Shown here: in pieces, positions 9,885 to 48,185 of the stretch
Layout: every line of letters starts with the position of its first letter
Position numbering within the stretch: position 1 is the stretch's first letter
Assembly: GCA_029225065.1 (NCBI GenBank)
Contig: JAQXVT010000045.1
Coordinates: 62,001 to 126,000 of the forward strand
Reading direction: 5' to 3'
DNA: 64,000 nucleotides
Source: Lachnospiraceae bacterium
Lineage (GTDB): Bacteria > Bacillota > Clostridia > Lachnospirales > Lachnospiraceae
Notes under the pieces: generated by a model
Databases searched by the model: none
Told to the model about the DNA's origin: nothing
What the model saw: only the letters and a program-made list of their open reading frames with translations
Program-made: the position numbers and the translations under genes

Positions 9885-9901
9885 AATCAGGAGGAAGTAA
9901 A

Positions 9902-10387
9902 ATGGCATTAAGACAGATCAGAATTATGGGAGACGAAAAACTGGAGAAGGTCTGCAGACCGCTGAAGCAGGTGACAGACCGTGACCGCGAGCTGATTCAG
10001 GATATGCTCGATACGATGTACGATGCAAACGGTGTCGGACTTGCAGCTCCGCAGGTCGGTGTGCTCAAGAGGATTGTGGTTATCGATATCGGAGAGGGAC
10101 CGATCGTTATGGTAAATCCGGAGATTCTGGAGACCTCCGGTTCCCAGACCGGACAGGAGGGCTGTTTGAGTCTTCCGGGACAGGCAGGCATTGTGACTCG
10201 TCCGAATTACGTGAAGGTGCGTGCGCTCGATGAAAACGGTGAGCCGTATGAGTTTGAGGGCACCGAGCTTCTGGCGCGTGCAGTCTGCCATGAGTGCGAC
10301 CATCTGGACGGTATTATGTACGTGCGCTACGTCGAGGGTGAGCTGATGGACGTTTCCGGTGAAGAGGCAGAAGAAATCGAGGAGTGA
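9902..10387 (+). CDS. def: Peptide deformylase
   Basis: Removes the formyl group from the initiator methionine of nascent proteins. The 161-residue protein has all three family motifs: GVGLAAPQVG from residue 44, EGCLSLPG with metal-binding Cys88, and HECDH at 130-134 supplying the two metal histidines and the catalytic glutamate. Start ATG follows AGGAGG by 7 bases. It is directly followed by fmt, which adds the formyl group this enzyme removes, a pairing conserved across bacteria. Confidence 0.97.
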   Translation: MALRQIRIMGDEKLEKVCRPLKQVTDRDRELIQDMLDTMYDANGVGLAAPQVGVLKRIVVIDIGEGPIVMVNPEILETSGSQTGQEGCLSLPGQAGIVTRPNYVKVRALDENGEPYEFEGTELLARAVCHECDHLDGIMYVRYVEGELMDVSGEEAEEIEE

Positions 10388-10392
10388 TCGGA

Positions 10393-11352: not shown

Positions 11353-11383
11353 CAGAAACAGCCGGGAAGAAAGGAGAGATTTT

Positions 11384-13478: not shown

Positions 13479-13502
13479 ACCGGCAAGCGTAATAAAACGG
13501 GA

Positions 13503-13527
13503 GCAGACGCTTTTACAATGCGTCTGC
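13503..13527 (+). promoter_or_regulatory. Perfect hairpin just before rlmN
   Basis: GCAGACGC at 13503-13510 and GCGTCTGC at 13520-13527 form an 8-bp stem with a 9-base loop. There is no T tract, so it is not an ordinary terminator. It lies between rsmB and the rlmN ribosome site and could be an mRNA processing or stability element. Confidence 0.4.
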
Positions 13528-13546
13528 AGATGATAAGGGGATTTTG

Positions 13547-14632: not shown

Positions 14633-15351
14633 AAGCGTACAGTATAACAGATATTGGAAAAAAGCGCTCCATGAACCAGGATTATGTCTATGCTTCGGAT
14701 CAGCCGGTGGGCAACCTGAAAAATCTGTTAATCGTTGCGGACGGAATGGGAGGACACAATGCCGGTGATCTTGCGTCACGCTACACAGTGCAGGAAATGC
14801 TTTCTTACATAAAAGAGTCGGAGGAAGAGAGGCCGGTGCCGCTTCTGAGTATGGCAATCCATCATGCAAACGAGCAGGTGCTGGAGAAAGCAGAGAGTGA
14901 AAAAGAACTGGAGGGCATGGGCACGACGCTGGTGGCTGCGACGGTACAGGAGGAGTACCTGTACGTGGCGAATGTCGGGGATAGCAGGCTGTACCTGATC
15001 GACGACGAGATCGAGCAGATCACGCATGACCATTCCCTTGTGGAAGAAATGATACGGATCGGAGAACTGCAGCGAAAAGATGCAAAAAATTATCCGGATC
15101 GAAATGTGATTACCCGCGCAATTGGTGTTAGGGTGCCGGTGCGCGTGGATTTTTTTGATGTAAAACTGGAGCATGGAGATATTATCCTGCTCTGTTCCGA
15201 CGGACTGACCAACATGGTAGAGGACGAAGAGATTCTGGAAATTGTCAAAAAGAGCAGCTCAATTGAGGAGGCGGCCGCTGCGCTTGTCGATACGGCAAAC
15301 AAAAACGGCGGCAAAGACAATATTTCCGTAGTGCTGGCTGAGTATGAATAG
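14629..15351 (+). CDS. prpC: PP2C-type serine/threonine phosphatase
   Basis: Dephosphorylates proteins phosphorylated by the kinase encoded next, using two Mn or Mg ions in the cytoplasm. The 240-residue protein shows the PP2C metal-binding motifs DGMGGH starting at Asp38, GDSR in the middle, and CSDGLTN and GGKDN toward the end. Its ATG overlaps the rlmN stop and the kinase begins 12 bases after it, an arrangement conserved in Firmicutes (prpC-prkC). Confidence 0.95.
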   Translation: MKAYSITDIGKKRSMNQDYVYASDQPVGNLKNLLIVADGMGGHNAGDLASRYTVQEMLSYIKESEEERPVPLLSMAIHHANEQVLEKAESEKELEGMGTTLVAATVQEEYLYVANVGDSRLYLIDDEIEQITHDHSLVEEMIRIGELQRKDAKNYPDRNVITRAIGVRVPVRVDFFDVKLEHGDIILLCSDGLTNMVEDEEILEIVKKSSSIEEAAAALVDTANKNGGKDNISVVLAEYE

Positions 15352-15363
15352 TGAGGATAAAAT

Positions 15364-17784
15364 ATGCTGAAAGTCGGAATGTTTATACAGAACAGATATG
15401 AAATAATATCCAAGATCGGCTCTGGCGGCATGGCGGATGTTTACAAGGCGAAGGACCACAAGCTGAACCGCTTTGTGGCGGTAAAGGTGATGAAGAAGGA
15501 ATTCCGGGATGACAAGCAGTTCATCTCCAAATTCCGGGTTGAGGCGCAGTCCGCAGCGGGCCTTGCGCACGCAAATATCGTAAACATCTATGATGTCGGG
15601 GAAGAGGCCGGGATTTACTATATTGTAATGGAGCTGGTCGAGGGGATCACGCTCAAGGAGTATATTAAAAACAAGGGGCGCCTGTCCGTACGGGAGGCGA
15701 CCAGCATTGCACTTCAGATTTCCGCGGGTCTGGAGGCGGCGCACAACAACGGAATTATCCACCGGGATATCAAGCCGCAGAACATCATCATATCGACGGA
15801 CGGAAAGGTGAAAGTGGCGGATTTCGGTATTGCGCGCGCTTCCTCGTCCAACACGATCAATTCCAGTGTGATGGGCTCAGTTCATTACAGCTCGCCGGAG
15901 CAGTCGCGCGGCGGCTACAGCGATGAGAAGAGCGATATTTATTCCCTCGGTATCACGATGTATGAGATGCTGACCGGCCATGTGCCGTTTGACGGGGATA
16001 CGGCGGTTGCGGTAGCAATCAAGCATCTGCAGGAGGAGCTGCACGGTCCGAAAGAGGAAGTGCCGGAGATTCCGCGCAGCACGAATGAGATTGTGCTGAA
16101 GTGTACGCAGAAGAGTCCGGACCGTCGGTATGCGAATATGACAGAGGTGATCCGGGATCTGCGGGAGTCGCTTGTCAATCCGGACGGTGATTTCGTGGAG
16201 CAGCAGGTGATGGACAATACCTCGCGGACGATCATCATGTCGAAAAATGATCTCGAGCAGATCAATGCAGAGCAGCGGGCGATGCCGGTCTACGACGAGA
16301 ATATGGAGCTCGGGGCGGCGGCAGGACTCCATGCGAAGGAGGATATGCAGAATCAGCGCAGCCGGGCCTATCAGCCGGGAAGCTATTATCACAAAAGCGG
16401 TTATCAGGAGATTCATCCGAACCATCCGGGAGATTATGACGGGAACAGATGGAGCCAGGATTACGACGAGACATACGAGGAGAATAACTACGATCCATAT
16501 TACGATGCGTACGACAATCCGCAGGACTATAAGATCGAGGACGAATCCTTCCATCTTCAGGATAAGGATCTGCTGAAAAATTTGCGGGAAAGAGACCGGG
16601 ACAGCGATGCCGGCCTGAATCCGAAACTGGAAAAGGCAGTCACGATCGGCGGAATCATTGTGGCGGTTGTGATTGGCTGTGTATTTCTGGCACTCCTTGC
16701 CAATGCGTTCGGTATTCTGAATTTCGGTCGGAAGTCATCGAAGACGAAGAAGACACAGACTCAGACGGAAGCTGTGGTGAGCAAAGAGACGGAAGTCAGT
16801 ACAGAAGTACAGACGGAAGCAGTGACTGAGACGGTGACAGAGGTAGTACAGCAGGTGACGGTACCGCAGATTACAGGACTTTCTGAGGCGGATGCGAAAC
16901 GAATGCTGGAAAGTTTCGGATTGCAGGGTGTCTCCTCGGGAACCGTTTCTTCCACTCAGTACAGTGCGGGTCAGGTATGCTCTCAGGATCCGGCTCAGGG
17001 CGAGCTTGTGGAGCGCGGGGCTACCGTGACATACCAGGTGGTTCAGGAGGATGAGAGCATCGTACTTGACGATCTGACAAATTATGAGAAGAGCATGGCG
17101 CAGGCATTCCTTCTGACGAAGGGACTGCAGTACAGTCTGGATGAGACGCAGTACAGTGATACGATTGATGCAGGTCATGTGATTTCGACCTCACCGGAAG
17201 CGGGTACGACGCTGCAGCCGGGGGATACGGTGACACTTTACATCAGTCAGGGCGTAGAGCCGTCTCAGGATCCGGCCGATTATGTGACCCTGTGGAGCGT
17301 GGTAGGCTACACGGAGGAGCAGGCGACGAAGGCACTCAAGATGCTGGATCTCGAGCCGGACTATCAGTATGAATACAGCGATACAGTGGCACAGGGCATG
17401 GTGATCAGCCAGAGTGTCGGTGCCGACGAACCGGTACAGCGTGGTACGACCGTGACACTGGTCATCAGCAACGGACCGGCTCCAGCTGATGCGCAGGATG
17501 ATACGATTTCCGTGACGAATGGTTCTGACGGAGTATGGAAATGTGATGCAAGCCTGGAGACGCCGGACGGCTATAACGGACAGCAGGTAAGAATCACGCT
17601 GGTGCAGGACGGAGTAGGAGAGGCGACGATTTTTGAGGGAACGACGACCTTCCCGTATCATCTGCAGGTACAGGGAGCGTCAGGCGTTTCGACCGGCACG
17701 GCATATGTCTATCTGCTCGATGACAATGGAAATGTGACGAATCAGATCGAGTACGCAGGGATCGAGTTCAGCCAGGTTCAGTAG
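15364..17784 (+). CDS. prkC: PASTA-domain eukaryotic-type serine/threonine kinase
   Basis: Membrane kinase that senses muropeptides or wall precursors outside and phosphorylates cytoplasmic proteins. Order of parts in 806 residues: kinase domain 10-275 with GSGGMADV, Lys41, HRDIKPQN (Asp135) and DFG at 153-155; an acidic Tyr/Asp-rich linker to about 420; one membrane segment about 426-453; a Thr/Glu-rich stalk; three PASTA repeats about 495-690; and a further beta-rich C-terminal domain of about 90 residues. The linker is unusually rich in Tyr, Asp and Asn. It lies directly after its phosphatase. Confidence 0.95.
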   Translation: MLKVGMFIQNRYEIISKIGSGGMADVYKAKDHKLNRFVAVKVMKKEFRDDKQFISKFRVEAQSAAGLAHANIVNIYDVGEEAGIYYIVMELVEGITLKEYIKNKGRLSVREATSIALQISAGLEAAHNNGIIHRDIKPQNIIISTDGKVKVADFGIARASSSNTINSSVMGSVHYSSPEQSRGGYSDEKSDIYSLGITMYEMLTGHVPFDGDTAVAVAIKHLQEELHGPKEEVPEIPRSTNEIVLKCTQKSPDRRYANMTEVIRDLRESLVNPDGDFVEQQVMDNTSRTIIMSKNDLEQINAEQRAMPVYDENMELGAAAGLHAKEDMQNQRSRAYQPGSYYHKSGYQEIHPNHPGDYDGNRWSQDYDETYEENNYDPYYDAYDNPQDYKIEDESFHLQDKDLLKNLRERDRDSDAGLNPKLEKAVTIGGIIVAVVIGCVFLALLANAFGILNFGRKSSKTKKTQTQTEAVVSKETEVSTEVQTEAVTETVTEVVQQVTVPQITGLSEADAKRMLESFGLQGVSSGTVSSTQYSAGQVCSQDPAQGELVERGATVTYQVVQEDESIVLDDLTNYEKSMAQAFLLTKGLQYSLDETQYSDTIDAGHVISTSPEAGTTLQPGDTVTLYISQGVEPSQDPADYVTLWSVVGYTEEQATKALKMLDLEPDYQYEYSDTVAQGMVISQSVGADEPVQRGTTVTLVISNGPAPADAQDDTISVTNGSDGVWKCDASLETPDGYNGQQVRITLVQDGVGEATIFEGTTTFPYHLQVQGASGVSTGTAYVYLLDDNGNVTNQIEYAGIEFSQVQ

Positions 17785-17822
17785 GCCAGGTGCAGAGGAT
17801 AAAAGCAGGCAGTGAAAGCTGT

Positions 17823-17865
17823 CTGGCTGAATCAAATAGGTGAAATCCAGTTCTGATTCAGCCGG
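17823..17865 (+). promoter_or_regulatory. Hairpin between prkC and rsgA
   Basis: GGCTGAATCA pairs with TGATTCAGCC across about 19 bases, extended by a C-G pair and a wobble. There is no T tract, so termination is unlikely. It may separate prkC and rsgA expression by RNA processing. Confidence 0.4.
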
Positions 17866-17917
17866 CGGCAGAGCAGGTGCTGCATAAATATTCAGAAGGA
17901 CAGAAAATGGGGGTTGC

Positions 17918-18799
17918 ATGAAAGGAAAAATCATAAGAGGAATCGGAGGTTTCTACTACGTGCAGGCGGAAGACGGCGAGGTGTATGAGTGCCGGGCAAA
18001 GGGGATTTTCCGGAAAGAGAAGATCAAGCCGCTTCCGGGCGATAATGTGGAGATGTCGGTGGTGCAGGACGAGGAAAAGCCAGCGGGCAACGTCGATGCG
18101 ATTCTGCCGCGTAAAAATGTGCTGATCCGGCCGGCAGTGGCCAATGTGGATCAGGCGCTCGTCATTTTTGCGGCGGCAAGTCCGAAGCCGAACCTGAATC
18201 TGCTGGACCGTTTTCTGATTTCGATGGAACAGCAGCACATTCCGGTAGTGATCTGCTTCAACAAAGCGGATCTTAGCACGGAGGAGGAGCTGGCAGTGCT
18301 GAAGGAGACGTACCGCGGAAGCGGATGTGAGGTACACATACTCTCGGTAGCCCAAAAAGACGGGATCGAGGAGATTCAGACGCTGTTAGATGGAAAGACG
18401 ACCGTTGTTGCCGGGCCTTCCGGTGTCGGAAAGTCGTCTCTGACCAACCTTCTGCAGCCGCATATTCAGATGGAAGTCGGGGAAGTGAGCCGGAAGATTG
18501 AGCGGGGGCGTCATACGACGCGACACACAGAGCTGATCTGTCTGCGGAAAAACACGTATTTTCTGGATACACCGGGATTTAGCTCGCTGTACCTTCAGGG
18601 TATCGTCTATGAGGATCTGTGGCGGTACTTTCCGGAGTTTGTTAAATATGAACCGTACTGCAGATTTCAGGGCTGCCTGCATTTGAGCGAGCCGGACTGT
18701 GCGGTAAAAGAGGCACTGGAAAAAGGTGAGATCAGTCGGTCGCGGTATGAGAACTATGCATTGCTCGCAGAAGAACTGCGGCATGCAAAGAAATACTGA
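17918..18799 (+). CDS. rsgA: Ribosome small subunit-dependent GTPase A
   Basis: A circularly permuted GTPase acting late in 30S ribosome assembly. The 293-residue protein has an N-terminal OB fold (about 1-65), then the permuted GTPase motifs: NKAD (G4) first, GPSGVGKS (G1) at 166-173, and DTPG (G3). A C-terminal zinc site uses Cys248, Cys253, His255 and Cys261. The start has GGGGGT upstream. The prkC-rsgA-rpe order is usual in Firmicutes. Confidence 0.96.
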   Translation: MKGKIIRGIGGFYYVQAEDGEVYECRAKGIFRKEKIKPLPGDNVEMSVVQDEEKPAGNVDAILPRKNVLIRPAVANVDQALVIFAAASPKPNLNLLDRFLISMEQQHIPVVICFNKADLSTEEELAVLKETYRGSGCEVHILSVAQKDGIEEIQTLLDGKTTVVAGPSGVGKSSLTNLLQPHIQMEVGEVSRKIERGRHTTRHTELICLRKNTYFLDTPGFSSLYLQGIVYEDLWRYFPEFVKYEPYCRFQGCLHLSEPDCAVKEALEKGEISRSRYENYALLAEELRHAKKY

Positions 18800-18875
18800 G
18801 TAAATGAGTGCCGTCTGCATGAGAACCGTTTGGTTATGAGAGTGGGGCATTAACTATAATGATGGGGGAGTTATT

Positions 18876-19610
18876 ATGAATACTACAGAGAAAGAAACAG
18901 CAGGCAGAATAGAGAATGAAAAGGAAGCAGGAGCGGCCCGGCAGCGGGAAAACATTCTTGCACCGTCGATTCTTGCAGCAGATTTTAACCAGCTTGGAGA
19001 GGAGATTGACGCGGTCACCTCAGCCGGAGCAAAATACCTGCATATCGATGTGATGGACGGCATGTTTGTGCCGAGCATCTCATTTGGCATGCCGGTGATT
19101 TCGTCGATCCGAAAAGGCCGCGACTGCTTTTTTGACGTTCATCTGATGATCGAGCGGCCGGAGCGCTACATTGACGAGTTCGCAGCATGCGGTGCGGATG
19201 GAATCACAGTCCATGCTGAGGCGACCCGTCATCTGCACCGGGCAGTGCAGACGATTAAGGCAAAGGGAATGAAAGCGGCGGTTGCTTTAAATCCGTCGAC
19301 ACCGCTTTCCGCCCTGGACTATGTGCTGGAGGATCTGGATATGGTACTTATTATGACAGTGAATCCGGGCTTTGGCGGGCAGAAATACATTCCTCAGATG
19401 ACGGAAAAGATCCGTGCGCTGCGAAAAAAAGTGCAGGAGATGGAACTTCCGCTGAAAATCGAGGTGGATGGCGGCATCAATGATGCGACGATCCACACGG
19501 TTCTGGAGGCAGGCGCAGATGTGATTGTGGCGGGTTCCGGTGTCTTTAAGGGTGACCGTGCAGAGAATGTGGCTCGTCTTTTAACTGTAATGAACGGCTA
19601 TACCTGGTAA
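18876..19610 (+). CDS. rpe: Ribulose-phosphate 3-epimerase
   Basis: Interconverts ribulose 5-phosphate and xylulose 5-phosphate in the pentose phosphate pathway. The TIM-barrel core begins ILAPSILAADF and includes HIDVMDG, VHLMI and VNPGFGGQ motifs with metal-binding His and Asp residues. The protein has 244 residues because about 27 charged residues (Glu, Lys, Thr rich) precede the core, which is unusual; the start at 18876 is supported by GGGGGAG 7 bases upstream. A perfect TATAAT at 18855-18860 lies just before it but lacks a good -35 box. Confidence 0.94.
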   Translation: MNTTEKETAGRIENEKEAGAARQRENILAPSILAADFNQLGEEIDAVTSAGAKYLHIDVMDGMFVPSISFGMPVISSIRKGRDCFFDVHLMIERPERYIDEFAACGADGITVHAEATRHLHRAVQTIKAKGMKAAVALNPSTPLSALDYVLEDLDMVLIMTVNPGFGGQKYIPQMTEKIRALRKKVQEMELPLKIEVDGGINDATIHTVLEAGADVIVAGSGVFKGDRAENVARLLTVMNGYTW

Positions 19611-19658
19611 ATCACCTCATGCCTGCGAAAACTGTCGACAGGTTTCTGACGGAAAGTA

Positions 19659-19687
19659 TTGTGAAATGTCGGTTTATGTGCTAAACT
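19659..19687 (+). promoter_or_regulatory. Candidate promoter for ychF
   Basis: TTGTGA at 19659-19664 and TAAACT at 19682-19687 are separated by 17 bases. Downstream, 19724-19763 holds three tandem copies of a unit like GTACAAAAGAAAA (13-14 bases), forming a purine-rich untranslated leader. Confidence 0.5.
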
Positions 19688-19808
19688 GTGACATGTTTGG
19701 AAAAAAGGTTGAAAAACCGTAGAGTACAAAAGAAAAGTACAAAAGAGAAATACAAAAGAAAAGTGCGGCAGCACGAGAGAATAGACGCAGAAATGGAGAG
19801 AAGCAAAC

Positions 19809-20906
19809 ATGAAACTTGGAATCGTAGGATTGCCGAATGTCGGAAAAAGTACCTTATTTAATTCTTTAACGAAAGCAGGCGCAGAGTCTGCCAACTACCC
19901 GTTCTGTACGATCGATCCGAACGTCGGAGTCGTTCCGGTACCGGACGAGAGGCTGAAGCTGCTTGGAGATCTGTACCATTCGGCAAAGATTACACCGGCA
20001 GTCATCGAATTTGTGGACATCGCAGGTCTGGTAAAGGGTGCGTCCAAGGGAGAAGGACTTGGAAACCAGTTCCTTGCAAACATCCGTGAGGTGGATGCGA
20101 TCGTTCATGTGGTTCGCTGTTTTGAGGATTCGAATGTCATTCATGTAGACGGCAGCGTAGATCCGATCCGTGATATCGAGACAATCAATCTGGAGCTGAT
20201 TTTCTCCGATCTGGAGATTCTGGAGCGCCGCATTGCAAAGACTGCGCGTGGAGCCAGAAATGACAAAAAGCTTGCAAAGGAGCTGGATCTTCTGCAGGCG
20301 CTGAAAGCACATCTTGAGGATGGAAAGCTTGCAATCACTTACAAAACAGAGGACGAGGAAGAACTGGCATGGCTGGCAGAGTACAACCTGCTGACAGCGA
20401 AGCCGGTTATTTTTGCGGCCAATGTCGGAGAGGATGACCTGGCGGATGACGGTGCCTCCAATGAGCACGTAGCCCGCGTGAGAGAGTACGCAAAAGAGAC
20501 AAACAGCGAGGTATTCGTAATCTGTGCACAGATTGAGGAGGAGATCTCCGAACTTGAGGACGATGAGAAGCAGATGTTCCTTGAGGATCTTGGATTAAAG
20601 GAGTCCGGTCTGGAAAAACTGATAAAGGCAAGCTATAGCCTGCTCGGACTTTTAAGCTACCTCACTGCTGGAGAAACCGAGACGCGTGCATGGACGATCC
20701 ACAGAGGAACGAAGGCACCGCAGGCAGCAGGAAAGATCCACTCTGATTTTGAACGTGGCTTTATCCGTGCCGAGGTAGTAAACTATCAGGATCTTCTGGA
20801 CTGCGGCGCTTATTCCGCAGCGAAGGAGAAAGGACTTGTCAGACTTGAGGGAAAGGATTACGTTGTGCAGGATGGTGATGTGATTCTGTTCCGTTTCAAT
20901 GTCTGA
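19809..20906 (+). CDS. ychF: Redox-regulated ATPase YchF (OLA1 family)
   Basis: A universally conserved Obg-family P-loop NTPase that binds ATP and associates with ribosomes. The 365-residue protein starts with the G1 loop GLPNVGKST at residues 7-15, has the switch DIAGLVKGAS, the divergent G4 region, and a C-terminal TGS domain (about 280-365). ATG 19809 follows GGAGAG by 8 bases. It lies between rpe and lgt with its own promoter candidate. Confidence 0.97.
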   Translation: MKLGIVGLPNVGKSTLFNSLTKAGAESANYPFCTIDPNVGVVPVPDERLKLLGDLYHSAKITPAVIEFVDIAGLVKGASKGEGLGNQFLANIREVDAIVHVVRCFEDSNVIHVDGSVDPIRDIETINLELIFSDLEILERRIAKTARGARNDKKLAKELDLLQALKAHLEDGKLAITYKTEDEEELAWLAEYNLLTAKPVIFAANVGEDDLADDGASNEHVARVREYAKETNSEVFVICAQIEEEISELEDDEKQMFLEDLGLKESGLEKLIKASYSLLGLLSYLTAGETETRAWTIHRGTKAPQAAGKIHSDFERGFIRAEVVNYQDLLDCGAYSAAKEKGLVRLEGKDYVVQDGDVILFRFNV

Positions 20907-38988: not shown

Positions 38989-39019
38989 AATGCCATGCTG
39001 CAGCCGCGGGGGGTGTTCT

Positions 39020-39799
39020 TTGTATTATGAATTCTACATAGATCAGTTTTTTCTGGAACAGGTAATTACGCAGGGGCTTTTGCTTCTGCTGGCATCAAAA
39101 TCAGTGGGGAAGCGTCTGTCTCTTCGCCGGTTAGGGGCAGGAAGCATGATCGGGGCCGGGACGATGACACTTTTTCTCTGCTTGGGAAGTCTGACACTGG
39201 CGTTCGTTAGTTCCCTGATGACGGGAAGCGCAGTGCTAGCGGGAAAAAATTGGCGGGAGATACCGCGCGATCTGGCGGTACTGCTGTTTATGACGTGTTG
39301 CTTCGGCGGTGTGCTGGAGGCAGCCGTGGAGCTGACGGGTGTTCCGGCTGCGGCGGGGGGCTGCGCTGCATTTCTTCTTCTGCGGGGCACATGGAAGAAG
39401 CTGATGGAGCGCAGGATTTGCCAGAGCCGGGAAGCGGAAGTAAAAATCACATGGGAAAAGAAAAATCTGACGGTAAAAGGGATCGTAGATACGGGAAACA
39501 GTCTGCAGGAACCGCTTGGCGGAAGTCCGGTCAGTATTCTGGATCAGGAGGCGGCCGGAGAGCTTCTGCCGGATGAGTGGGAGACGCGCAGAGGGTTTTA
39601 CCTGATTCCGTATCGCTCGATCGGGCGGAAAAAGGGATGGATGCGTGCATTTCGGGCGGATGAAATGCAGGTCGTGACCGCAGAGGGTACGGTCAGCATC
39701 CGGGGCCCGATCCTCGCGATCAGCGGGAATGAGCTGAGCGGGGACGGAAGATACCGGATCATTCTGCATCCGCAGCATGCCGGGGCAGAGCAGGGTTGA
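39020..39799 (+). CDS. spoIIGA: Sigma-E processing peptidase SpoIIGA
   Basis: Membrane aspartic protease that removes the pro-sequence of sigma-E in the mother cell after a forespore signal. The 259-residue protein has about five membrane segments in its first half and a cytoplasmic half with the protease motif VDTGNSL (Asp157). TTG 39020 is chosen: the protein then starts with YYEFYIDQFF, the usual N-terminus, and GGGGGTG lies 6 bases upstream. ATG 38990 is only 2 bases from the -10 box and so cannot be in the transcript. Confidence 0.9.
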   Translation: MYYEFYIDQFFLEQVITQGLLLLLASKSVGKRLSLRRLGAGSMIGAGTMTLFLCLGSLTLAFVSSLMTGSAVLAGKNWREIPRDLAVLLFMTCCFGGVLEAAVELTGVPAAAGGCAAFLLLRGTWKKLMERRICQSREAEVKITWEKKNLTVKGIVDTGNSLQEPLGGSPVSILDQEAAGELLPDEWETRRGFYLIPYRSIGRKKGWMRAFRADEMQVVTAEGTVSIRGPILAISGNELSGDGRYRIILHPQHAGAEQG

Positions 39800-39829
39800 A
39801 CAGAATCCGTACAGACAGGAGGGGATCGT

Positions 39830-40573
39830 ATGATAGTGAGAGTTGCAGTGCCGCAGCGTTTTCAGCTGAAGATGGCGGCGGGATTTGGAGATATGCTGTT
39901 TCATCGGACGAACGAGGTGCATTATATTGGCGGGACGGAGGTGCTCCCGCCGCCGCTGACCGCCGCGCAGGAGCAGGAGCTGCTTGCAATGCTCGGAAAA
40001 GAAGGGGATGCAAAAGCGAGAAGCCAGCTGATCGAGCGGAATCTGCGGCTGGTCGTGTACATAGCGAAAAAATTTGATAATACCGGAGTCGGAGTGGAGG
40101 ATCTGATTTCCATCGGAACAATAGGACTGATCAAAGCGATCAATACCTTTAATCCGGAGAAAAAAATCAAGCTCGCAACGTACGCATCGCGCTGTATCGA
40201 AAACGAGATCCTGATGTACCTGCGCCGAAACAGCAAGACGAAGCTGGAGGTATCGATCGACGAGCCGCTCAATGTGGACTGGGACGGAAACGAGCTGCTG
40301 CTCTCTGATATTCTCGGGACGGACGAGGACGTGATTTACCGCGATATGGAGACGGAGGCAGAGTATCAGGTGCTGCAGGGGGCAATCAAAAAGCTTTCGA
40401 GGCGGGAGCAGACGATCGTACAGCTGCGTTTTGGAATCAACACGAGGGACGGAGAAGAAAAAACGCAGAAAGAAGTGGCGGATCTTCTTGGAATTTCGCA
40501 GTCCTACATTTCCCGCCTGGAGAAACGGATCATAAGAAGGCTGCGCCGCGAGATGGAGCTGCGCGTGCAGTAG
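39830..40573 (+). CDS. sigE: RNA polymerase sporulation sigma factor sigma-E (pro-form)
   Basis: Early mother-cell sigma factor. The 247-residue protein matches the family from EVHYIGG-EVLPPPL onward, through region 2 ([29 protein letters not shown]) to the region 4 helix-turn-helix [10 protein letters not shown]. The first 30 or so residues are the amphipathic pro-sequence to be removed by SpoIIGA; it is shorter on hydrophobic residues than in Bacillus. AGGAGGGG lies 5 bases before ATG. It follows spoIIGA by 30 bases. Confidence 0.96.
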
Positions 40574-40615
40574 AGCTGTCAAGGCCGAAAACTTTCTGAA
40601 ATTTTTCCGGCAGGT

Positions 40616-40645
40616 GCATAGGCGGCCGTGAAAATGTGAATCATT
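40616..40645 (+). promoter_or_regulatory. Candidate sigma-F/sigma-G promoter of sigG
   Basis: GCATA at 40616-40620 and GTGAATCATT at 40636-40645 are separated by 15 bases and resemble the forespore consensus GYATA-N15-GGnnAnAnT, with one or two mismatches in the -10 part. In B. subtilis sigG is read by sigma-F and sigma-G. Confidence 0.4.
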
Positions 40646-40655
40646 TAACTGAACA

Positions 40656-40688
40656 GCGAAGCGGATAGACAATAAAATTCCGCTTTGC
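40656..40688 (+). repeat. Family A-like hairpin before sigG
   Basis: GCGAAGCGGA pairs with TCCGCTTTGC around a 13-base loop that lacks TGCGAAT. The arms match family A, so this may be a diverged copy. Confidence 0.4.
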
Positions 40689-40717
40689 CAAGACCAAATT
40701 CCAGGAGGATGATTCAC

Positions 40718-41497
40718 ATGGCGCTTAACAAAGTGGAAATATGCGGAGTCAACACTTCGAAGCTTCCGGTTCTGACGGCAGAGGAGAAGGACTTCCTGTT
40801 TGAACGGATTAAGGCAGGAGACGAAAAGGCGAGAGAACTGTATATAAAGGGAAACTTAAGGCTTGTGCTCAGCGTGATCAAGCGGTTTTCGAACAGCAGC
40901 GAAAACGCGGACGACCTGTTTCAGATCGGCTGTATCGGACTGATGAAGGCGGTGGATAACTTTGATACCGGGCTGCAGGTAAAATTTTCAACGTATGCAG
41001 TACCGATGATTATCGGAGAGATCAGGCGGTATCTGCGGGACAACAATTCGATTCGTGTCAGTCGCTCCCTGCGTGATACCGCATACAAGGCGATCTACGC
41101 GAAGGAAAATTATACGAGGACACATTTGAAGGAGCCGACGATCGAGGAGATCGCGACGGAGATCGGGATTCCAAAGGAAGAGATTACGTATGCTATGGAT
41201 GCGATCCAAAGCCCGGTGAGTCTGTATGATCCTGTCTATACTGAGGGCGGGGATACGTTGTACGTGATGGATCAGATCAGCGATCGGAAAAACCGGGAAG
41301 AAAACTGGGTGGAATCCATTTCCCTCGGGGAGGCGATGAAGCGGCTGGATGACCGGGAACGCCACATCATCGAGCTTCGGTTTTACGAGGGAAAGACACA
41401 GATGGAGGTGGCCTGTGAGATCGGAATTTCGCAGGCACAGGTGAGCCGTCTGGAAAAAAATGCTCTGAAAAGCATGAAAAATTATCTGCGGACGTGA
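40718..41497 (+). CDS. sigG: RNA polymerase sporulation sigma factor sigma-G
   Basis: Late forespore sigma factor. The 259-residue protein begins MALNKVEICGVNTSKLPVL, nearly the same as the Bacillus N-terminus, followed by region 2 (NLRLVLSVIKRF, DDLFQIGCIGLMKAVDNFD), region 3 and the region 4 helix ISQAQVSRLEK. ATG 40718 has AGGAGG 9 bases upstream; ATG 40709 overlaps that site. It follows sigE by 144 bases, a spacing that carries a forespore-type promoter. Confidence 0.97.
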   Translation: MALNKVEICGVNTSKLPVLTAEEKDFLFERIKAGDEKARELYIKGNLRLVLSVIKRFSNSSENADDLFQIGCIGLMKAVDNFDTGLQVKFSTYAVPMIIGEIRRYLRDNNSIRVSRSLRDTAYKAIYAKENYTRTHLKEPTIEEIATEIGIPKEEITYAMDAIQSPVSLYDPVYTEGGDTLYVMDQISDRKNREENWVESISLGEAMKRLDDRERHIIELRFYEGKTQMEVACEIGISQAQVSRLEKNALKSMKNYLRT

Positions 41498-41502
41498 AAG
41501 AA

Positions 41503-41547
41503 ATGTGGGTGAACCAGAAAAACCATGGTTCATCCGCATTTTTTTTT
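41503..41547 (+). terminator. Terminator after sigG
   Basis: ATGTGGGTGAACC pairs with GGTTCATCCGCAT over 13 positions (two wobbles) and is followed by nine T. The 3' arm overlaps the stop codon of the converging ymxH gene. Confidence 0.9.
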
Positions 41548-41844
41548 GCACTTTTCCTCCTCCACGTCGACCAGAATAATATCAGCGCCGATCTGCACAA
41601 CGCATCGCCATGGAATAAAAAATTCAAAATCCCGTCCGAGAAACCAGCACAGCCGTCCGGGACCCGGCACGACGAGCGCGAGGATACAGCCGGTGCAGCA
41701 GTCGATCTCGAGGTCACTGATGCAGCCCATGGAACGGCAGGTGCGCATGTTGATGACTTCCTTTTGCCGCAGAGCGCACAGCCGGACGGGATGCGGATTT
41801 AAATCCGGACAGCAGCCGGGACGGCAGCATTCCTTTTCGCCCAT
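41530..41844 (-). CDS. ymxH: YlmC/YmxH family sporulation protein (PRC-barrel)
   Basis: Small PRC-barrel-like protein found in spore formers next to sigG and nrdR; exact role unknown. The 104-residue product shows the family pattern RLCALRQKEVINM, then GCISDLEIDCCTGCILALVVPGP and DFEFFIPWRCVVQIGADIILVD. A cysteine-rich N-terminus (about 25 residues) precedes the core. ATG 41844 is supported by GGAGG 6 bases upstream on the minus strand. It converges with sigG. Confidence 0.85.
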   Translation of the reverse strand: MGEKECCRPGCCPDLNPHPVRLCALRQKEVINMRTCRSMGCISDLEIDCCTGCILALVVPGPGRLCWFLGRDFEFFIPWRCVVQIGADIILVDVEEEKCKKKCG

Positions 41845-41871
41845 AAGAACCTCCAGCGCATTCTTTCTATT

Positions 41872-41898
41872 TCTATATGATAATATATGAAGAAATAC
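41872..41898 (-). promoter_or_regulatory. Weak sigma-E-like promoter candidate for ymxH
   Basis: Read on the minus strand, GTATTT and CATATAGA are separated by 13 bases, loosely like the sigma-E pattern (GHATATT and CATACAMT). No sigma-A promoter is clear here. Confidence 0.25.
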
Positions 41899-41939
41899 AG
41901 GAGAAGATACGATCGCCGGAAGCGGGGGGCTTTTCCTGA

Positions 41940-41968
41940 TTGACAGTGTTTCGTGTTTTGGTTATACT
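41940..41968 (+). promoter_or_regulatory. nrdR operon promoter
   Basis: Perfect TTGACA at 41940-41945 and TATACT at 41963-41968 are separated by 17 bases. This strong promoter probably also serves the three unknown genes after nrdR, since no terminator intervenes. Confidence 0.85.
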
Positions 41969-41997
41969 CAGTGATAGAAGAAAGAGGAGGAAAACCG

Positions 41998-42447
41998 ATG
42001 AAATGTCCGTTTTGCAACCAGGATGATACAAGAGTGGTGGATTCCAGACCGGCTGATGACAACAGTTCCATCCGCAGACGCCGCCTGTGCGATGCGTGCG
42101 GCAGACGGTTTACTACCTATGAAAAGGTGGAGACGATTCCGCTTGTTGTGATAAAGAAAGACCAGACGAGAGAGCAGTATGACAGGAGAAAGATTGAGGA
42201 CGGAGTGATGCGCGCCTGCTACAAGCGGCCGACGCCAATCCAGAAGATCCGGGAGATGCTCGATGAGGTGGAGCGGGAAATTTATAACCGTGAGGAAAAG
42301 GAATTAGAGAGCAAGGTGATTGGCGAGATCGTGATGGAAAAATTAAAAGAGCTGGACGCTGTGGCATACGTTCGTTTTGCGTCGGTCTATCGCGAATTTA
42401 AGGACGTCAATACCTTTATGGATGAATTAAAAAAATTTTTAAATTAA
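41998..42447 (+). CDS. nrdR: Transcriptional repressor NrdR
   Basis: Zinc-ribbon and ATP-cone repressor of ribonucleotide reductase genes. The 149-residue protein begins MKCPFC with a second pair CDAC (four zinc cysteines), followed by the ATP-cone (about 49-139). ATG 41998 follows GAGGAGG by 7 bases; the longer frame to 41953 contains the promoter -10 region and is rejected. The next gene starts 13 bases after its stop. Confidence 0.97.
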
Positions 42448-42460
42448 TCAGGTGGTCAGA

Positions 42461-45400
42461 TTGAAAAAAAGAATCGAACAGTTATTGAACGGAAAATTTG
42501 AATATGAAGCGCCGAAGCTTTTGATGGCGCCGGAGGAGCTGGAGGTAAAAGTGGTCCCGGGAAAGGCAGTCAGGGGAACTTTTGCACTGGCCGGGCGTGA
42601 CGGAAGAAAAATCCGTGGATTTATCTATTCATCAAATCCACGGATGAGGTGCGAACCGATCGAATTTCAGGGAGTCCGTGCGGAGATCCATTATCAGGCA
42701 GACGGAAACGGATTCCCCGAAGGCGGAGAGGAACAGGGTTTTTTTACAATCTGCAGTGACATCGGAGAATACAAGCTGCCGTATATCCTGACGCTTCCAA
42801 AAGAGGATTCGGATGCGCCAAAAGAAGAAAAGACGCAAAAATCAGAAAAGGCGGCAGAGATGCTGACAGAGGGAAATGCAGGAGATGCCCTGGCAGCGCT
42901 CGCAAAAGAAGATTTTCAGCAGGCCTACCGCAGTTTTCTGCACCCGGAATTTGGAGAAGCACTGAAAAAAGAGCCGGAGAAATATGGCTGGTATGAGGCA
43001 CTTGGCATGAGCGGATTCAGCTACCAGACGCTGGAGGAATTTCTTTGCCGGTTTGGCTATAAGGAGACGGTGCAGCTGTCCCTTGACCGGACGGAGGTGG
43101 AGGTCACGGAGCTTACCGAGGCTTCGGCCGAGACGGTGCAGCTGACCAGAAGCGGCTGGGGCTTTCAGAAGATCACGATCGAATCCGATGCGCTGTTTGT
43201 AAGACCGGAGAAAAAGGTGCTTACGACGGATGAATTTATCGGAAGCACATTTGATCTGAAGCTTGTGATCGATCCGAAAAAAATGCACGGCGGTAAAAAT
43301 TATGCGCGTGTCGTATTCGAGACGCCGTATCAGAGACTGGCTGTTAGTGTGTGCGCGTCGAAGGAGGCGCTGCATCCGTATCAGAATCAGAGGCGTGTGT
43401 GCAATGGCCTGCAGAAAAAGCTGGAGGAGCTGTATATTCGATTCCGGCTGAAAAAAATCGATCTGGAGACGTGGACGGAGCGGTCCATCAATGTGATCGG
43501 CAGCTATCACAGAGCAGGCGGGGAGAATCCGTATGCGGATCTGTTTCTGGTGCAGCTTTACTTTGCATCCGGAAAACGTCAGCGTGCACTGCGGCTGCTT
43601 GAGGCACTGGAATCGCAGAAAGAGCGGCTCAGAACGCCCGACTGTTATGGATTTTACCGATATCTGACGACATTTTTCTATCAGGAAGCGTCGTATGTTG
43701 ACCAGGTTGAGGCGGAGATTCAGGCCCTCTTTTATAAGGACAAGACAAACTGGAAGCTGCAGTGGATTCTGTTTTATCTGCAGGAAAATCTGCTGCGGGA
43801 CGGAGCTGCAAGGTATGAGGCTGCCGCGGAGCAGTTTCGTTATGGCTGCCGGAGCAGAATCTTATATTATGAGGCATATCAGGCGCTGATGGAAAATCCG
43901 TTTCTGATGCGCCATATCAGTCTGTTTGAGCTGCAGGTGCTGCGCTTTGCGGCAAAGGAGGATGTGCTGACTGTGGAAATAGTCCGTCATCTTGCGGTGC
44001 TTGCTTCTCATTACGGAAAATATTCGCTGCAGCTTTTGCAGATTCTGGAGGCTGCGTTTGCAAAAGAGCCGTCTCCTGAGCTGACGAGGGCGATCTGCCT
44101 GCAGCTGATGAAGGGAGAGCGACGTGATGAGAAAGCATTTGCGTGGTACGAGCGCGGCGTGGCACAGGAGCTTCGCCTGACCGGATTGTACGAGTATTAT
44201 ATGGAATCGACACCGCAGCTGGATCTTGGCGAGATGCCGCAGATCATCCGCATGTATTTTGCGTATGATACGACACTTGATTACCGCAGAAGGGCAGCGA
44301 TTTACAGGCAGATTGTCAAAAAACAGGAGGAAGATCCACAGACGTACCGCACCTACCGTGCTGCGATGGAAAAATTCGCCGTCGATCAGCTGGAAATGGG
44401 GCGGATGACAGAGGATCTGGCTGTGCTTTACCGGAAATTCATCCGCAAAGAAAATATGACGCGCAATATGACTGAGCAGCTGTCCAGACTGCTGTTTACG
44501 TACTGCTTTACGGTCAGCTCTCCGAGACTGCGCAGTCTGACCGTGCATTCGGAGCGCCTGGCCGAGGAATATTCTGCCGTATTTTCAGATGGCACATGCA
44601 GCATTGCGATCTATGATCCGGACAGCATCGTAGTCGTGGAGGATGAGGATGGCGTGCGCTACCCGGCGGATGTGTTTTGCAGCAGAAAAAAGCTGTTTGA
44701 GAGCAAAGAGATGCTGGAGTGGTGCGTGTCTTCGGAACATGCCGGGATGAGCCTGTTTGTGTGTGCGCTCAGCCTGGAAGCCGGTCTGATCAACCAAAAG
44801 ACACTTCCGTTTCTGGTAAAGGGCTGTGCACAGCAGGAATTCTCAGAAGATTATCGAAGCAGACTGCGTGAGGCGGTACTGCATTATTATACCGAACATT
44901 TAAGAGACGAATCGCTGCCGGGCTTTCTGGAAAATATTGATTATCTGGATTATGTGAAGGTCGACAAGGCGGCACTGATTACGCTTCTGGCAGAAGAGGG
45001 AATGTGCAAGGATGCATTTTCTCTGCTGGATGTCTATGGATTTGAGGGCATTCCGCTGCTGCAGCTTGTGCGGATCTGCAGCCGGATGGTACTGGAACTG
45101 GAGTTTGCAGAAAATACGATGCTTCTGTACCTGTGTCATTTCTGCTTTGAGAGCGGAAAATACGATGATAAGCTGCTGCGTTATCTGCTGCTCTACTATG
45201 AGGGTTCTGTAGATGAGATGAAGCGTCTCTGGGAGGCAGCCGGAAGCTTTGAGCTGGATACCATGCTGCTTGAGGAGAAGATTATAATGATGATTCTCTT
45301 CACAGGAAGCGGTACACAGGGCTCAGAACCGGTCTTTGAATCTTATGCTAAAAAGATGGGCAGAAGAAAGATCTGCTGTGCCTATCTGAACCTGAAATCA

Positions 45401-46051
45401 TACGAATATTTTGTAAAAGGAATGGCTACGGCAGAATGCATTTTCCGATATCTGGAGAAGGATTACGGTTACTTAAAAGAGCATGATCGTCTGGCAGAGC
45501 AGGAGGAGGTCTGCCGCCTTGCGCTGCTGCAGTATTACTCGTCACAGATGGCACTCTCAAAGAAGCAGCGCGGCTATGCGGCACAGCTGCTGGAAGAATT
45601 CAGCACGAAGGGAATGCGGTTTGCGTTCTGGATGCGTTTTGATGAGGAACTGCTGCGGCCGTACCAGATGGAAGGCCATGTCTTTGTTGAGTATGTCTGC
45701 GATCCGTCACATACCGTGACGATCCATTTCCGCGAGGCGGGAAGCGAGGGACCGTACCGCAAAGAAGCGATGAAAAACTGTTTCGAGGGCGTTTTTGTCC
45801 GTGAATTTACGCTGTTTTATGGAGACGAGATCGAGTGTTATCTGGAAGAAGAGTGCCAGGGAGAGCGGAAGTGCACGGATCAGCGCATTCTGAAGCTTTC
45901 CGGTGCGAAGACAGATGGCAGAAGCGGGTATGAGCTGATCAACCGCATGATTCGTGCTCAAAAAGAACAGGATCTGCAGCAGATGGAGCAGGAGATGGAA
46001 AATTATCTGCAGATGGGTTATGTCACAAAAGAATTGTTTACCCTGCAGTAA
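42461..46051 (+). CDS. Very large protein of unknown function (DUF5717-like), beta domains flanking helical repeats
   Basis: I do not know its function; from memory it resembles a family listed as DUF5717 in Lachnospiraceae, unchecked. The 1196 residues fall into an N-terminal beta-rich part (about 1-320) with an acidic/Lys-rich linker near 115-135, a long alpha-helical part (about 330-1050) full of YRxA, LxxL and aromatic-rich 30-40-residue helix pairs like TPR or HAT repeats, a short beta insertion near 710-750, and a beta-rich C-terminal domain from about 1060. There is no signal peptide or membrane segment, so it should be a cytoplasmic scaffold. TTG 42461 is chosen because AGGTGG lies 5 bases upstream. 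It follows nrdR by 13 bases and precedes an Hsp70-like gene by 24. Confidence 0.75.
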   Translation: MKKRIEQLLNGKFEYEAPKLLMAPEELEVKVVPGKAVRGTFALAGRDGRKIRGFIYSSNPRMRCEPIEFQGVRAEIHYQADGNGFPEGGEEQGFFTICSDIGEYKLPYILTLPKEDSDAPKEEKTQKSEKAAEMLTEGNAGDALAALAKEDFQQAYRSFLHPEFGEALKKEPEKYGWYEALGMSGFSYQTLEEFLCRFGYKETVQLSLDRTEVEVTELTEASAETVQLTRSGWGFQKITIESDALFVRPEKKVLTTDEFIGSTFDLKLVIDPKKMHGGKNYARVVFETPYQRLAVSVCASKEALHPYQNQRRVCNGLQKKLEELYIRFRLKKIDLETWTERSINVIGSYHRAGGENPYADLFLVQLYFASGKRQRALRLLEALESQKERLRTPDCYGFYRYLTTFFYQEASYVDQVEAEIQALFYKDKTNWKLQWILFYLQENLLRDGAARYEAAAEQFRYGCRSRILYYEAYQALMENPFLMRHISLFELQVLRFAAKEDVLTVEIVRHLAVLASHYGKYSLQLLQILEAAFAKEPSPELTRAICLQLMKGERRDEKAFAWYERGVAQELRLTGLYEYYMESTPQLDLGEMPQIIRMYFAYDTTLDYRRRAAIYRQIVKKQEEDPQTYRTYRAAMEKFAVDQLEMGRMTEDLAVLYRKFIRKENMTRNMTEQLSRLLFTYCFTVSSPRLRSLTVHSERLAEEYSAVFSDGTCSIAIYDPDSIVVVEDEDGVRYPADVFCSRKKLFESKEMLEWCVSSEHAGMSLFVCALSLEAGLINQKTLPFLVKGCAQQEFSEDYRSRLREAVLHYYTEHLRDESLPGFLENIDYLDYVKVDKAALITLLAEEGMCKDAFSLLDVYGFEGIPLLQLVRICSRMVLELEFAENTMLLYLCHFCFESGKYDDKLLRYLLLYYEGSVDEMKRLWEAAGSFELDTMLLEEKIIMMILFTGSGTQGSEPVFESYAKKMGRRKICCAYLNLKSYEYFVKGMATAECIFRYLEKDYGYLKEHDRLAEQEEVCRLALLQYYSSQMALSKKQRGYAAQLLEEFSTKGMRFAFWMRFDEELLRPYQMEGHVFVEYVCDPSHTVTIHFREAGSEGPYRKEAMKNCFEGVFVREFTLFYGDEIECYLEEECQGERKCTDQRILKLSGAKTDGRSGYELINRMIRAQKEQDLQQMEQEMENYLQMGYVTKELFTLQ

Positions 46052-46075
46052 ATACAGCAGACTAGAAAAAACAGG

Positions 46076-47365
46076 ATGGTGTTTGAAAAGATGGTACAGG
46101 CATCAAATGAATTGTTCCTGGGGCTGGAGCTGAACCGGGACTACGCACAGATGACGTATTTCCATCAGTCGGTGAAGGAGCCGCTGACGGTGAGCCGTAC
46201 CGCGGGAGAGGATGATTACCTGCTTCCGATGGGGCTTCGCATGGATGCAGCGGGAGAATGGCATCTGTGGGATGCGGATGTGCAGACGGAGGAGGAAGCG
46301 ACGGATCGCTTTCGCATCTTTGGAATCTATGAAAAAATCGAGAATGGAACGGAATTAAGAGACAAAGAGACGGTCTATGAGCCGGAAGAGCTGCTTGCAA
46401 TCTATATCAGTACATGCATGAGCCTTCTAAAGCTTCTTGCGCAGAATGCGGAAGTCAAGGTGATGGTGACGGTTCGGGATCTGACGAAGCGCTGGAGTAC
46501 GGTGCTGACCGGTGCACTGCAAAAAGTCGGGATTGACCGGAAACAGATCTTTATGCAGGATTATCTCTCTTCCTTCTATTATTATACAGTCAACCAGAAA
46601 AAGGAACTGTGGTATCACGATGTGGCTTTGATAGAGTGTGTGGATGAGACGATTTTGGGGTATATTCTCCATATCGATCATTCGACGCGTCCGGCGGTAG
46701 CGCGGGCAGAGCTTATTGTCAGCCAGAAGGTGGACGCGTCCGTGCGCGGTGAGATGGATGACGAGGCGTGGAACGAGGAACGGGACCGGCTGTTTTTTGA
46801 ATTGCTCAAAAAGCTGTTTGAGCGCAGAGTAGTGTCGGTCAGCTATCTGATCGGTTCCTATTTCAATAAGAGCTGGGCGGTAAATTCGATAAAATTCCTG
46901 TGCTTTAAACGCCATGCATATCAGGGAAAAAATTTGTATTCCAAGGGAGCCTGCTATGCGGCGATGGAACGCTGCGGGCTGATTGCTGACCGGGGAATTT
47001 TATTTGGCGGGCGGGATATGATCCGTGTCAATCTGGCGATGGAGATGCGCATTCGCGGAAAAGAAGAATTTTATCCGCTGGTTAATGCCGGAATCAACTG
47101 GTATGAGGCGCACCACACCTGTGAGTTTATTCCGGACGGTGAGAATGAGATCCGTATGACCTCACGCCCGATCACGGGCGGAGAGCCGGTTTTGCATATT
47201 CTGCGTTTCAGCGGGCTTCCAAAGCGGCCAAATCGTGCTACACGCCTGCGGATGACCGTTTATTTTACAGCAGCGGACTGCTGCGTGGTGGAGATCGAGG
47301 ATCTTGGATTCGGCGAACTCTACCGGACCTCCGGACTGACCTGGAAAAGAGAAATCCATTTCTGA
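46076..47365 (+). CDS. Divergent Hsp70/actin-like fold protein, unknown function (DUF5716-like)
   Basis: I do not know its role. The 429-residue protein follows the order of an Hsp70 ATPase domain: FLGLELNRDYAQM in place of the phosphate-1 loop, KVMVTVRDLTKRWSTVLTGALQKVGI (split here as VMVTVRDL then LQKVGI) resembling the VITVPA-to-GL region, IALIECVD-like ALIECVD at the phosphate-2 place, and VSYLIGSYF with LYSKGACYAA like the adenosine motif. The nucleotide-contact residues are mostly changed (no GTT, no GGG), so ATP binding is doubtful. It may be a pseudo-chaperone or structural actin-fold protein working with its two neighbours. Start may be ATG 46076 or 46091; neither has a strong site. 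Cytoplasmic. Confidence 0.65.
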   Translation: MVFEKMVQASNELFLGLELNRDYAQMTYFHQSVKEPLTVSRTAGEDDYLLPMGLRMDAAGEWHLWDADVQTEEEATDRFRIFGIYEKIENGTELRDKETVYEPEELLAIYISTCMSLLKLLAQNAEVKVMVTVRDLTKRWSTVLTGALQKVGIDRKQIFMQDYLSSFYYYTVNQKKELWYHDVALIECVDETILGYILHIDHSTRPAVARAELIVSQKVDASVRGEMDDEAWNEERDRLFFELLKKLFERRVVSVSYLIGSYFNKSWAVNSIKFLCFKRHAYQGKNLYSKGACYAAMERCGLIADRGILFGGRDMIRVNLAMEMRIRGKEEFYPLVNAGINWYEAHHTCEFIPDGENEIRMTSRPITGGEPVLHILRFSGLPKRPNRATRLRMTVYFTAADCCVVEIEDLGFGELYRTSGLTWKREIHF

Positions 47366-47390
47366 CCCGGAGCAAACAGGAGGAAAAAAC

Positions 47391-48185
47391 ATGAGCTACG
47401 ATCTGTGTCTGCTTCCGCAGGCAAAGAAACCATACTATATCGAAAATATCCGTACAAATGTCTATTCGCTGGAAGAGCTCTGCTTTTATCTGTACAACAA
47501 CGCCTGCCTGATCGACGAGACGCTGATGAATGAGCGGCTTCTGGACTGGCTGAGGGATGAACTCGGACTGAAGAAACTTTACCGACAGCTGTACGAGCAG
47601 CTGGAAAAGAAAGACGGAGCCGGATTTTTTATCCTTCCGATTTTCCGGGAGGCCGGTTATTTAACGAATGCGCAGATGCGGGAATATCAGGAAGAGCTTG
47701 CGAAGCTGGAGGTGCAGTCAGCGGATATGAAGCAGAAGATGCGCGGGGATTATCTCACGAAAGAAAAGATGTATGCGCGCGCGGTCTGGGAATACCGTCA
47801 GATTTTAAAGCGGCGAAGTCCTGGCAAGCTCGGTGTACAGTTTTACGGTGCAATCTGGAACAATCTGGGCGTGGCGTATGCGGGACTGTTTCAGTTTGAG
47901 CAGGCGGCTGAGTGTTTTCTGGAGGCATACCGCCTTACAAAGACAAAGGAAACATTCCGAAAGTATATCAGTGCACTTCCGCTTTTCCTTTCCGGAGAGG
48001 AGTATCAGGAAAGGCTGAAAGCGCTGGATGCTGACCCGTATCTGGTGCAGAAGATTCAGGAGCACAATGCAAAGGTATGTATGCAGAAGGAATATCAGGA
48101 AGAAAAGGAGCGCATGCTGCAGCGACCGCGTGAGCAGGTACTTGAAGAATGGAAAGAACAGTACCGAAAATCGTCAAAAATCTGA
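47391..48185 (+). CDS. Helical-repeat (TPR-like) protein of unknown function
   Basis: I do not recognise a named family. The 264-residue protein has an N-terminal half with LEELCFYLYNN and a middle TPR-like pair, YGAIWNNLGVAYAGLFQFEQAAECFLEAYRL (the pattern is W/Y-x-x-L-G-x-x-Y-A followed by A-x-x-x-F), and a charged coiled tail of Glu, Lys and Arg. It is cytoplasmic by composition. AGGAGG lies 7 bases before ATG. It is the third gene of the nrdR-linked unknown set, which ends at the purF promoter. Confidence 0.7.
   Translation: MSYDLCLLPQAKKPYYIENIRTNVYSLEELCFYLYNNACLIDETLMNERLLDWLRDELGLKKLYRQLYEQLEKKDGAGFFILPIFREAGYLTNAQMREYQEELAKLEVQSADMKQKMRGDYLTKEKMYARAVWEYRQILKRRSPGKLGVQFYGAIWNNLGVAYAGLFQFEQAAECFLEAYRLTKTKETFRKYISALPLFLSGEEYQERLKALDADPYLVQKIQEHNAKVCMQKEYQEEKERMLQRPREQVLEEWKEQYRKSSKI

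Follow-up and report, generated by a model that had tools for sequence, protein, structure and literature searches.

The DNA stretch analysed here, referred to as the window, comprises 64,000 nucleotides from a Lachnospiraceae bacterium (positions 62,001 to 126,000 of contig JAQXVT010000045.1, GenBank assembly GCA_029225065.1) and carries three co-directional genes, A, B and C, at 42461–48185 on the plus strand, downstream of nrdR. The domains and motifs of A, B and C given below, and the sigma-70-like site, lie on this strand. Gene A (42461–46051) encodes a predicted scaffold protein of 1196 amino acids (aa), gene B (46076–47365) an Hsp70 homologue of 429 aa with a degenerate nucleotide site, and gene C (47391–48185) a short protein of 264 aa of the tetratricopeptide repeat (TPR) type. 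The intergenic gaps are 24 and 25 bp, in agreement with a sequence-only reading made earlier from the letters of this DNA, which had placed three genes in one direction behind nrdR with gaps of about 25 bases. TTG at 42461 is the start to which most near orthologues of A align, with GTG at 42452 as an alternative, and nrdR, which ends at 42447, accordingly lies 4–13 bp ahead of A; orthologues of B mostly begin at Met-6 (46091). B matches the Pfam family DUF5716_C, and A matches DUF5717_N (1.8e-233) and DUF5717 (1.5e-87); the DUF5716/DUF5717 profile scores of 322.8, 777.6 and 294.1 bits are all above the curated cut-offs of 34.7, 25 and 25, respectively. B and A each have a single match in the window's own genome. 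The Pfam descriptions of the two families give neither a function nor a relation to Hsp70; the relation of DUF5716 to Hsp70 is shown by the fold of B and by an intermediate protein from another family of the order.

In fold searches, the model of B matches Hsp70 loosely over the nucleotide-binding domain (NBD) and closely over the substrate-binding beta domain (SBD-beta; residues 314–429, 47015–47362). The actin/Hsp70 fold of the NBD is recovered by the model and the fold search and also from sequence alone, with a profile similarity to DnaK of 93.9%. The order of NBD followed by SBD-beta is that of DnaK/Hsp70 (PF00012), as the sequence-only reading had proposed for the middle protein. By its predicted structure and its profile, B is an Hsp70 homologue with an NBD and an SBD-beta and is more than actin-like. 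MreB, which the same reading had named beside Hsp70, turned out to be the wrong comparison because the likeness to Hsp70 extends over the substrate-binding domain, and no MreB is found among the 50 fold matches listed. A sequence search of the PDB with B returned two chance-level entries only (E 0.16 and 0.29), which were discarded.

The Hsp70 cycle requires ATP bound between the lobes of the NBD, and subdomain IIB takes part in it. Residues 16–24 of B (GLELNRDYA, 46121–46147) align with the phosphate-1 loop GIDLGTTNS of Hsp70, and residues 186–194 (IECVDETIL, 46631–46657) align with the phosphate-2 loop YDLGGGTFD. The phosphate-1 threonines, the phosphate-2 glycines and the glutamate-proline segment are altered in all 20 aligned B sequences, so that the degraded nucleotide loops noticed earlier in the middle protein are borne out by the alignment, and B differs from Hsp70 in lacking intact phosphate-1, phosphate-2 and catalytic glutamate motifs. 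Subdomain IIB is missing from all 16 Lachnospiraceae B sequences, which have 53–68 residues there compared with 133 in DnaK, and the alpha-helical lid is missing as well, the model of B terminating in SBD-beta. The Pfam profile PF00012 gives no match to the window's B at E 1. Since the ATP motifs are altered and subdomain IIB is absent, B appears unlikely to cycle with ATP. Elsewhere in its own genome, the bacterium has a canonical DnaK and a second DnaK-like protein (locus L120, C80:42081-43799; L-numbers are locus labels and G-numbers genome labels of this analysis) about 26 kb from dnaK, and this second Hsp70 clusters with DnaK in the Hsp70 tree.

The model of A (mean predicted local distance difference test score (pLDDT) 82.7, predicted template modelling score 0.46) places a first immunoglobulin-like (Ig) domain of the PapD/MSP/ASH type at residues 16–115 (42506–42805) and a second of the PapD/ASH type at residues 203–304 (43067–43372). 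Model secondary structure and Foldseek place an alpha-solenoid at residues 306–1068 (43376–45664) with a beta insertion at residues 680–744, and the secondary structure of the model adds a C-terminal beta domain at residues 1073–1145 (45677–45895). Foldseek matches along the solenoid, among them the Ski complex, Ctr9 and Naa15, are helical scaffold proteins of eukaryotes with TM-scores near 0.1, so that the likeness is one of the kind of architecture and not of kinship. A is thus modelled as a helical solenoid bearing two PapD/MSP-type Ig domains. C matches TPR_2 (5.2e-06) over one repeat at residues 155–184 with 26.6 bits, just below the cut-off of 27, and clear TPRs are seen in its relatives from two other families, which are TPR proteins. 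The earlier description of both outer proteins as helical-repeat proteins, the larger with beta domains at its two ends, holds for the model of A, which has a beta insertion in mid-protein too; for C it corresponds to one detected TPR and TPR relatives. At locus L203 (genome G279), A lacks the N-terminal Ig part, and a profile of this part matched no other open reading frame (ORF) within 20 kb.

Of 200 Lachnospiraceae genomes, 196 have a match to A and 195 one to B (163 and 162 of the 165 in the high-quality subset), and 193 of the 195 B-positive genomes contain only one match to B. Apart from the three high-quality genomes G417, G478 and G485 described below, the misses, of A in G410 and G582 and of B in G514 and G532, fall in genomes with a completeness of 67–70%, and a fragment of A was later found in G582. 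Among 391 genomes of the class, B exceeds the cut-off in 16, all of them Lachnospiraceae. A weak class-level match of B in G318 was regarded as chance, the protein reading by eye as MarR plus GNAT, and weak matches of A in two genomes of family f10 were set aside, being proteins of 316–318 aa with no Hsp70-profile match among their neighbours within 20 kb. A lies upstream and C downstream of B in all 44 loci compared, which are the best-scoring of those returned by the searches and no random draw, and the order A-B-C is kept in all 20 diverse 20-kb regions of the family, hand-chosen from long contigs and sharing genomes with the 44. Among 17 near relatives, C was counted in 16, as the contig of L001 ends before it; the wide sets hold 38, 38 and 37 sequences for A, B and C. 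In at least two genomes of different genera, G431 and G454, spotted through their unusually long frames, B and C are fused in one uninterrupted frame of 684 and 713 aa, respectively. The dN/dS ratios are 0.05–0.21 for A (five pairs), 0.04–0.15 for B (five pairs) and 0.06–0.16 for C (three pairs, as L002–L003 gave no dS and window–L001 was impossible); several of the 13 gene pairs are saturated, with dS above 1 in the more distant ones, and only the low side of the ratios is safe. Near-universal presence in the family together with ratios of 0.04–0.21 indicates that A-B-C is not a chance finding. The co-occurrence across Lachnospiraceae on which the sequence-only reading had staked its case is confirmed by the genome counts and the conserved gene order.

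Outside Lachnospiraceae, A-type proteins are present in 5 of 11 searched genomes of the order (G597, G598, G599, G600 and G602), and in all five A is split into two genes and accompanied by a motif-intact Hsp70 (Hsp70-1). Except for G599, these genomes additionally encode a B-like, a GrpE-like and a C-like protein as well as two further motif-intact Hsp70s, of which one carries a VWA domain. This set forms a single contiguous run in G600 and G597. The order in G600 is A as two genes (427 and 907 aa), Hsp70-1, a GrpE-domain protein, the B-like Hsp70, Hsp70-3, Hsp70-4-VWA, a C-like TPR protein, a coiled-coil protein and, by eye, valS. This order recurs in G597, where Hsp70-4 and C are each split into two ORFs (L151, 6205–9384, minus strand), a frameshift or an assembly error; the Hsp70-4 profile and sequences were taken from L150, L152 and L158. 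In G602, the first six genes of the run extend to the end of a contig, and Hsp70-4 and C are on a separate contig; in G599, two A genes, Hsp70-1 and the GrpE-like protein reach a contig end. The GrpE domain is confirmed by Pfam in G600 (1.4e-14) and G597 (5.4e-12), and the assignment in G598, G599 and G602 comes from a custom two-sequence profile (115–128 bits). One protein of G600 matches both DUF5716_C (1.8e-25) and HSP70 (1.9e-16), providing a direct bridge between the two families. A query with Hsp70-1 of G600 returned itself and the other four genomes at 695–1015 bits, and the remaining 13 searched genomes gave DnaK-like scores only. In 80 Lachnospiraceae genomes searched as a whole, no match to Hsp70-1 reaches E 1e-80. 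Hsp70-3, Hsp70-4 and the GrpE-like protein are not found beside the operon in 28 Lachnospiraceae loci, a search by neighbourhood, as only Hsp70-1 was sought genome-wide and Hsp70s were sought also in the window's own genome.

In an Hsp70 tree of 38 sequences, the Lachnospiraceae B proteins form one clade (99/99), sister to B of G597 (100/99), beyond which come three other B proteins and then Hsp70-3 toward the DnaK side. The position of B beside Hsp70-3 supports a decay of an Hsp70-3-like chaperone. These observations lead to a hypothesis that is favoured, if by a modest degree, namely that A-B-C form one soluble complex, derived by reduction from a dedicated chaperone machine with several Hsp70s and now devoid of an ATPase of its own. 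The ancestor would have cycled with ATP and possessed a nucleotide exchange factor of its own, and the active Hsp70s and the exchange factor would have been lost in the Lachnospiraceae line. The ATP motifs may have decayed first and subdomain IIB later, with the partners lost in the Lachnospiraceae line. B would then dispense with ATP cycling and sit on the A/C scaffold as a subunit that either holds a peptide or is locked by a pseudosubstrate, comparable to the non-canonical Hsp70 Ssz1 of yeast. Its retained SBD-beta could still bind a peptide, whether from a client or from a partner, much as a motif of Zuo1 sits in Ssz1. The combination of an extended solenoid bearing Ig domains of the chaperone type with a TPR partner that is at times fused to B would suit a single standing complex. 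Support for the chaperone-like complex that was suggested earlier from the letters, a predicted one, comes from the Hsp70 descent of B and the two B–C fusions.

Several observations weigh against such a reduced machine. The Hsp70 tree has long branches and a skewed composition in several B sequences, and its root depends on the choice of outgroup, so that reduction in Lachnospiraceae, as opposed to expansion elsewhere, is inferred, loss in the Lachnospiraceae line being the simplest inference from these sequences. The tree of A puts the G597 protein near the Lachnospiraceae ones without resolving it (56/77). The model of B is only moderate (mean pLDDT 70.4, with residues 259–314 below 50), its NBD fits with a large root-mean-square deviation (10.7 Å over 234 positions for 5obx; 3.6 Å over 160 for the best-fitting 5obw), and the full-length TM-scores of its fold matches are about 0.3. 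The aspartate of the first loop is retained in 16 of the 20 B sequences, with glutamate in the window's B, and nucleotide binding by B may therefore persist. The gene set of G598 is dispersed over three places (two A genes and Hsp70-1; GrpE-like protein and B; Hsp70-3, Hsp70-4 and C), and G599, which is 80% complete, shows no DUF5716 match in its genome despite having A and Hsp70-1. Within the family, the high-quality genomes G417 and G478 are without A and B, and G485 has A and no B match. These three genomes are possible natural deletions.

The same genes could be explained by a co-chaperone platform, in which the three proteins bring the housekeeping DnaK system to a client or a site and B is an Hsp110-like partner and not a client holder. 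Besides a canonical DnaK, the window's genome keeps a second Hsp70; Hsp70 commonly partners with TPR and solenoid proteins, and the fold searches with B list Hsp110 and Sse1. However, Hsp110 requires ATP and an intact NBD face, whereas B is without subdomain IIB; in addition, DnaK entries rank above Hsp110 entries in these searches and dnaK lies outside the operon, and recruitment of DnaK is regarded as unlikely. Another explanation takes the Hsp70 fold as a relic in a structural scaffold, where B would hold a peptide from either A or C. The three proteins would act in assembling the envelope or the cytoskeleton, possibly together with a coiled-coil protein with a hydrophobic stretch that adjoins C in 5 of the 20 diverse loci, in 2 of 8 further loci (L206 and L208) and in the G600 and G597 runs. 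The B–C fusions would suit such a structural pair. But the remaining 15 of the 20 loci lack this coiled-coil protein as a neighbour, as does C in the window, and none of the envelope genes shows consistent linkage across the 20 loci, making a structural role distinctly unlikely. That B is an unusual but active Hsp70, binding nucleotide in an altered pocket and cycling, would be consistent with the retained aspartate and with a single-glycine remnant of the adenosine motif that persists in Lachnospiraceae B sequences; the changes to the phosphate-1 threonines, the phosphate-2 glycines and the glutamate-proline segment in every aligned B and the absence of IIB from every Lachnospiraceae one make it highly improbable.

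The nearest published kind of system is the HSP70/GrpE theme of the GAP1-N2/DO-GTPase conflict systems. Kaur et al. 2020 (PMC7159879) describe it from Firmicutes and actinobacteria as an Hsp70, a GrpE and a beta-repeat protein fused to TPR or DnaJ, to which another Hsp70 is sometimes added. Gene runs like those of G600 and G597 are alike in kind, having Hsp70, GrpE and beta-repeat/TPR proteins. The window operon, by contrast, is without GrpE, and no DO-GTPase or GAP1 domain is detected by Pfam in A, B or C or in 19 scanned proteins of the G600 and G597 runs, which hold three motif-intact Hsp70s and one degenerate Hsp70. The same domain library detects DO-GTPase and GAP1 at locus L155 of the window's genus. 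The Lachnospiraceae operon is near-universal in its family, part of the core and not patchy. L155 (G588, 6017–19888) is a conflict-type locus that encodes a DO-GTPase, a GAP1-M protein and a pair of Hsp70s, one of which bears a VWA domain; G588 carries A and B at another place. Homology of A to a 1046-aa protein of L155 was considered and dropped, as the profile of A gives no match to it at E 1. Further accessory Hsp70 genes are found at L160 and L161 of the same genus, where the neighbours L160_11 and L161_05 look J-domain-like by eye.

In the ribosome-associated complex (RAC) of yeast, the non-canonical Hsp70 Ssz1, with a rudimentary substrate-binding domain, is held on its partner Zuo1, a motif of which sits in Ssz1 (PMC7083937). 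An Hsp70-derived subunit is common to RAC and the operon, and RAC is among the fold matches of B. RAC has a J-protein and is located at the ribosome, whereas A, B and C show no J domain by Pfam at E 1, and B, unlike Ssz1, additionally lacks subdomain IIB. Titles and abstract openings in the literature revealed no study of the A-B-C operon; DUF5716/DUF5717 are named in one paper, on curcuma derivatives by its title, and a term search of PMC11019930 finds neither 'Clostridi' nor 'Lachnospir'.

Ahead of the operon, genes resembling spoIIGA, sigE, sigG and nrdR lie at 38990–42447, an order kept in several near relatives, and purF, purB and genes resembling ptsH and ptsI follow it; the names spoIIGA, sigE, sigG, purF, purB, ptsH and ptsI were assigned by eye from the translations. 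A sigma-70-like site at 41940–41968 upstream of nrdR, with 11 of 12 consensus matches, is a possible shared promoter, but the scanned region contains 10 promoter-like sites against 6.3 expected, so this site alone is weak. The earlier proposal of expression with NrdR agrees with the adjacency of nrdR, directly upstream on the same strand, in the window and in 12 of 17 near relatives; only 1 of 20 diverse family loci shares it. Because this linkage is local, it says little about function, and linkage to nrdR and purF was rejected as a functional clue. An Rfam scan of the window gave no family above its threshold, and NCBIfam has no family for A, B or C. PADLOC matched A, B and C only to HamA (E 0.026) and AbiEii (E 0.14), so weakly as to indicate no catalogued defence system.

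Lachnospiraceae are among the commonest gut bacteria, and a three-gene block that almost every sampled member of the family carries now has a proposed ancestry, with two DUF families gaining a fold and a relation. The order contains genomes with an Hsp70 relative that has lost the ATP motifs but kept subdomain IIB, beside others that have lost both. The operon may offer a bacterial counterpart to Ssz1. There is also the possibility, put forward tentatively, that the core of Lachnospiraceae includes a family-wide, ATP-independent holdase derived from Hsp70, in which the scaffold would have been kept and the motors and the exchange factor discarded.
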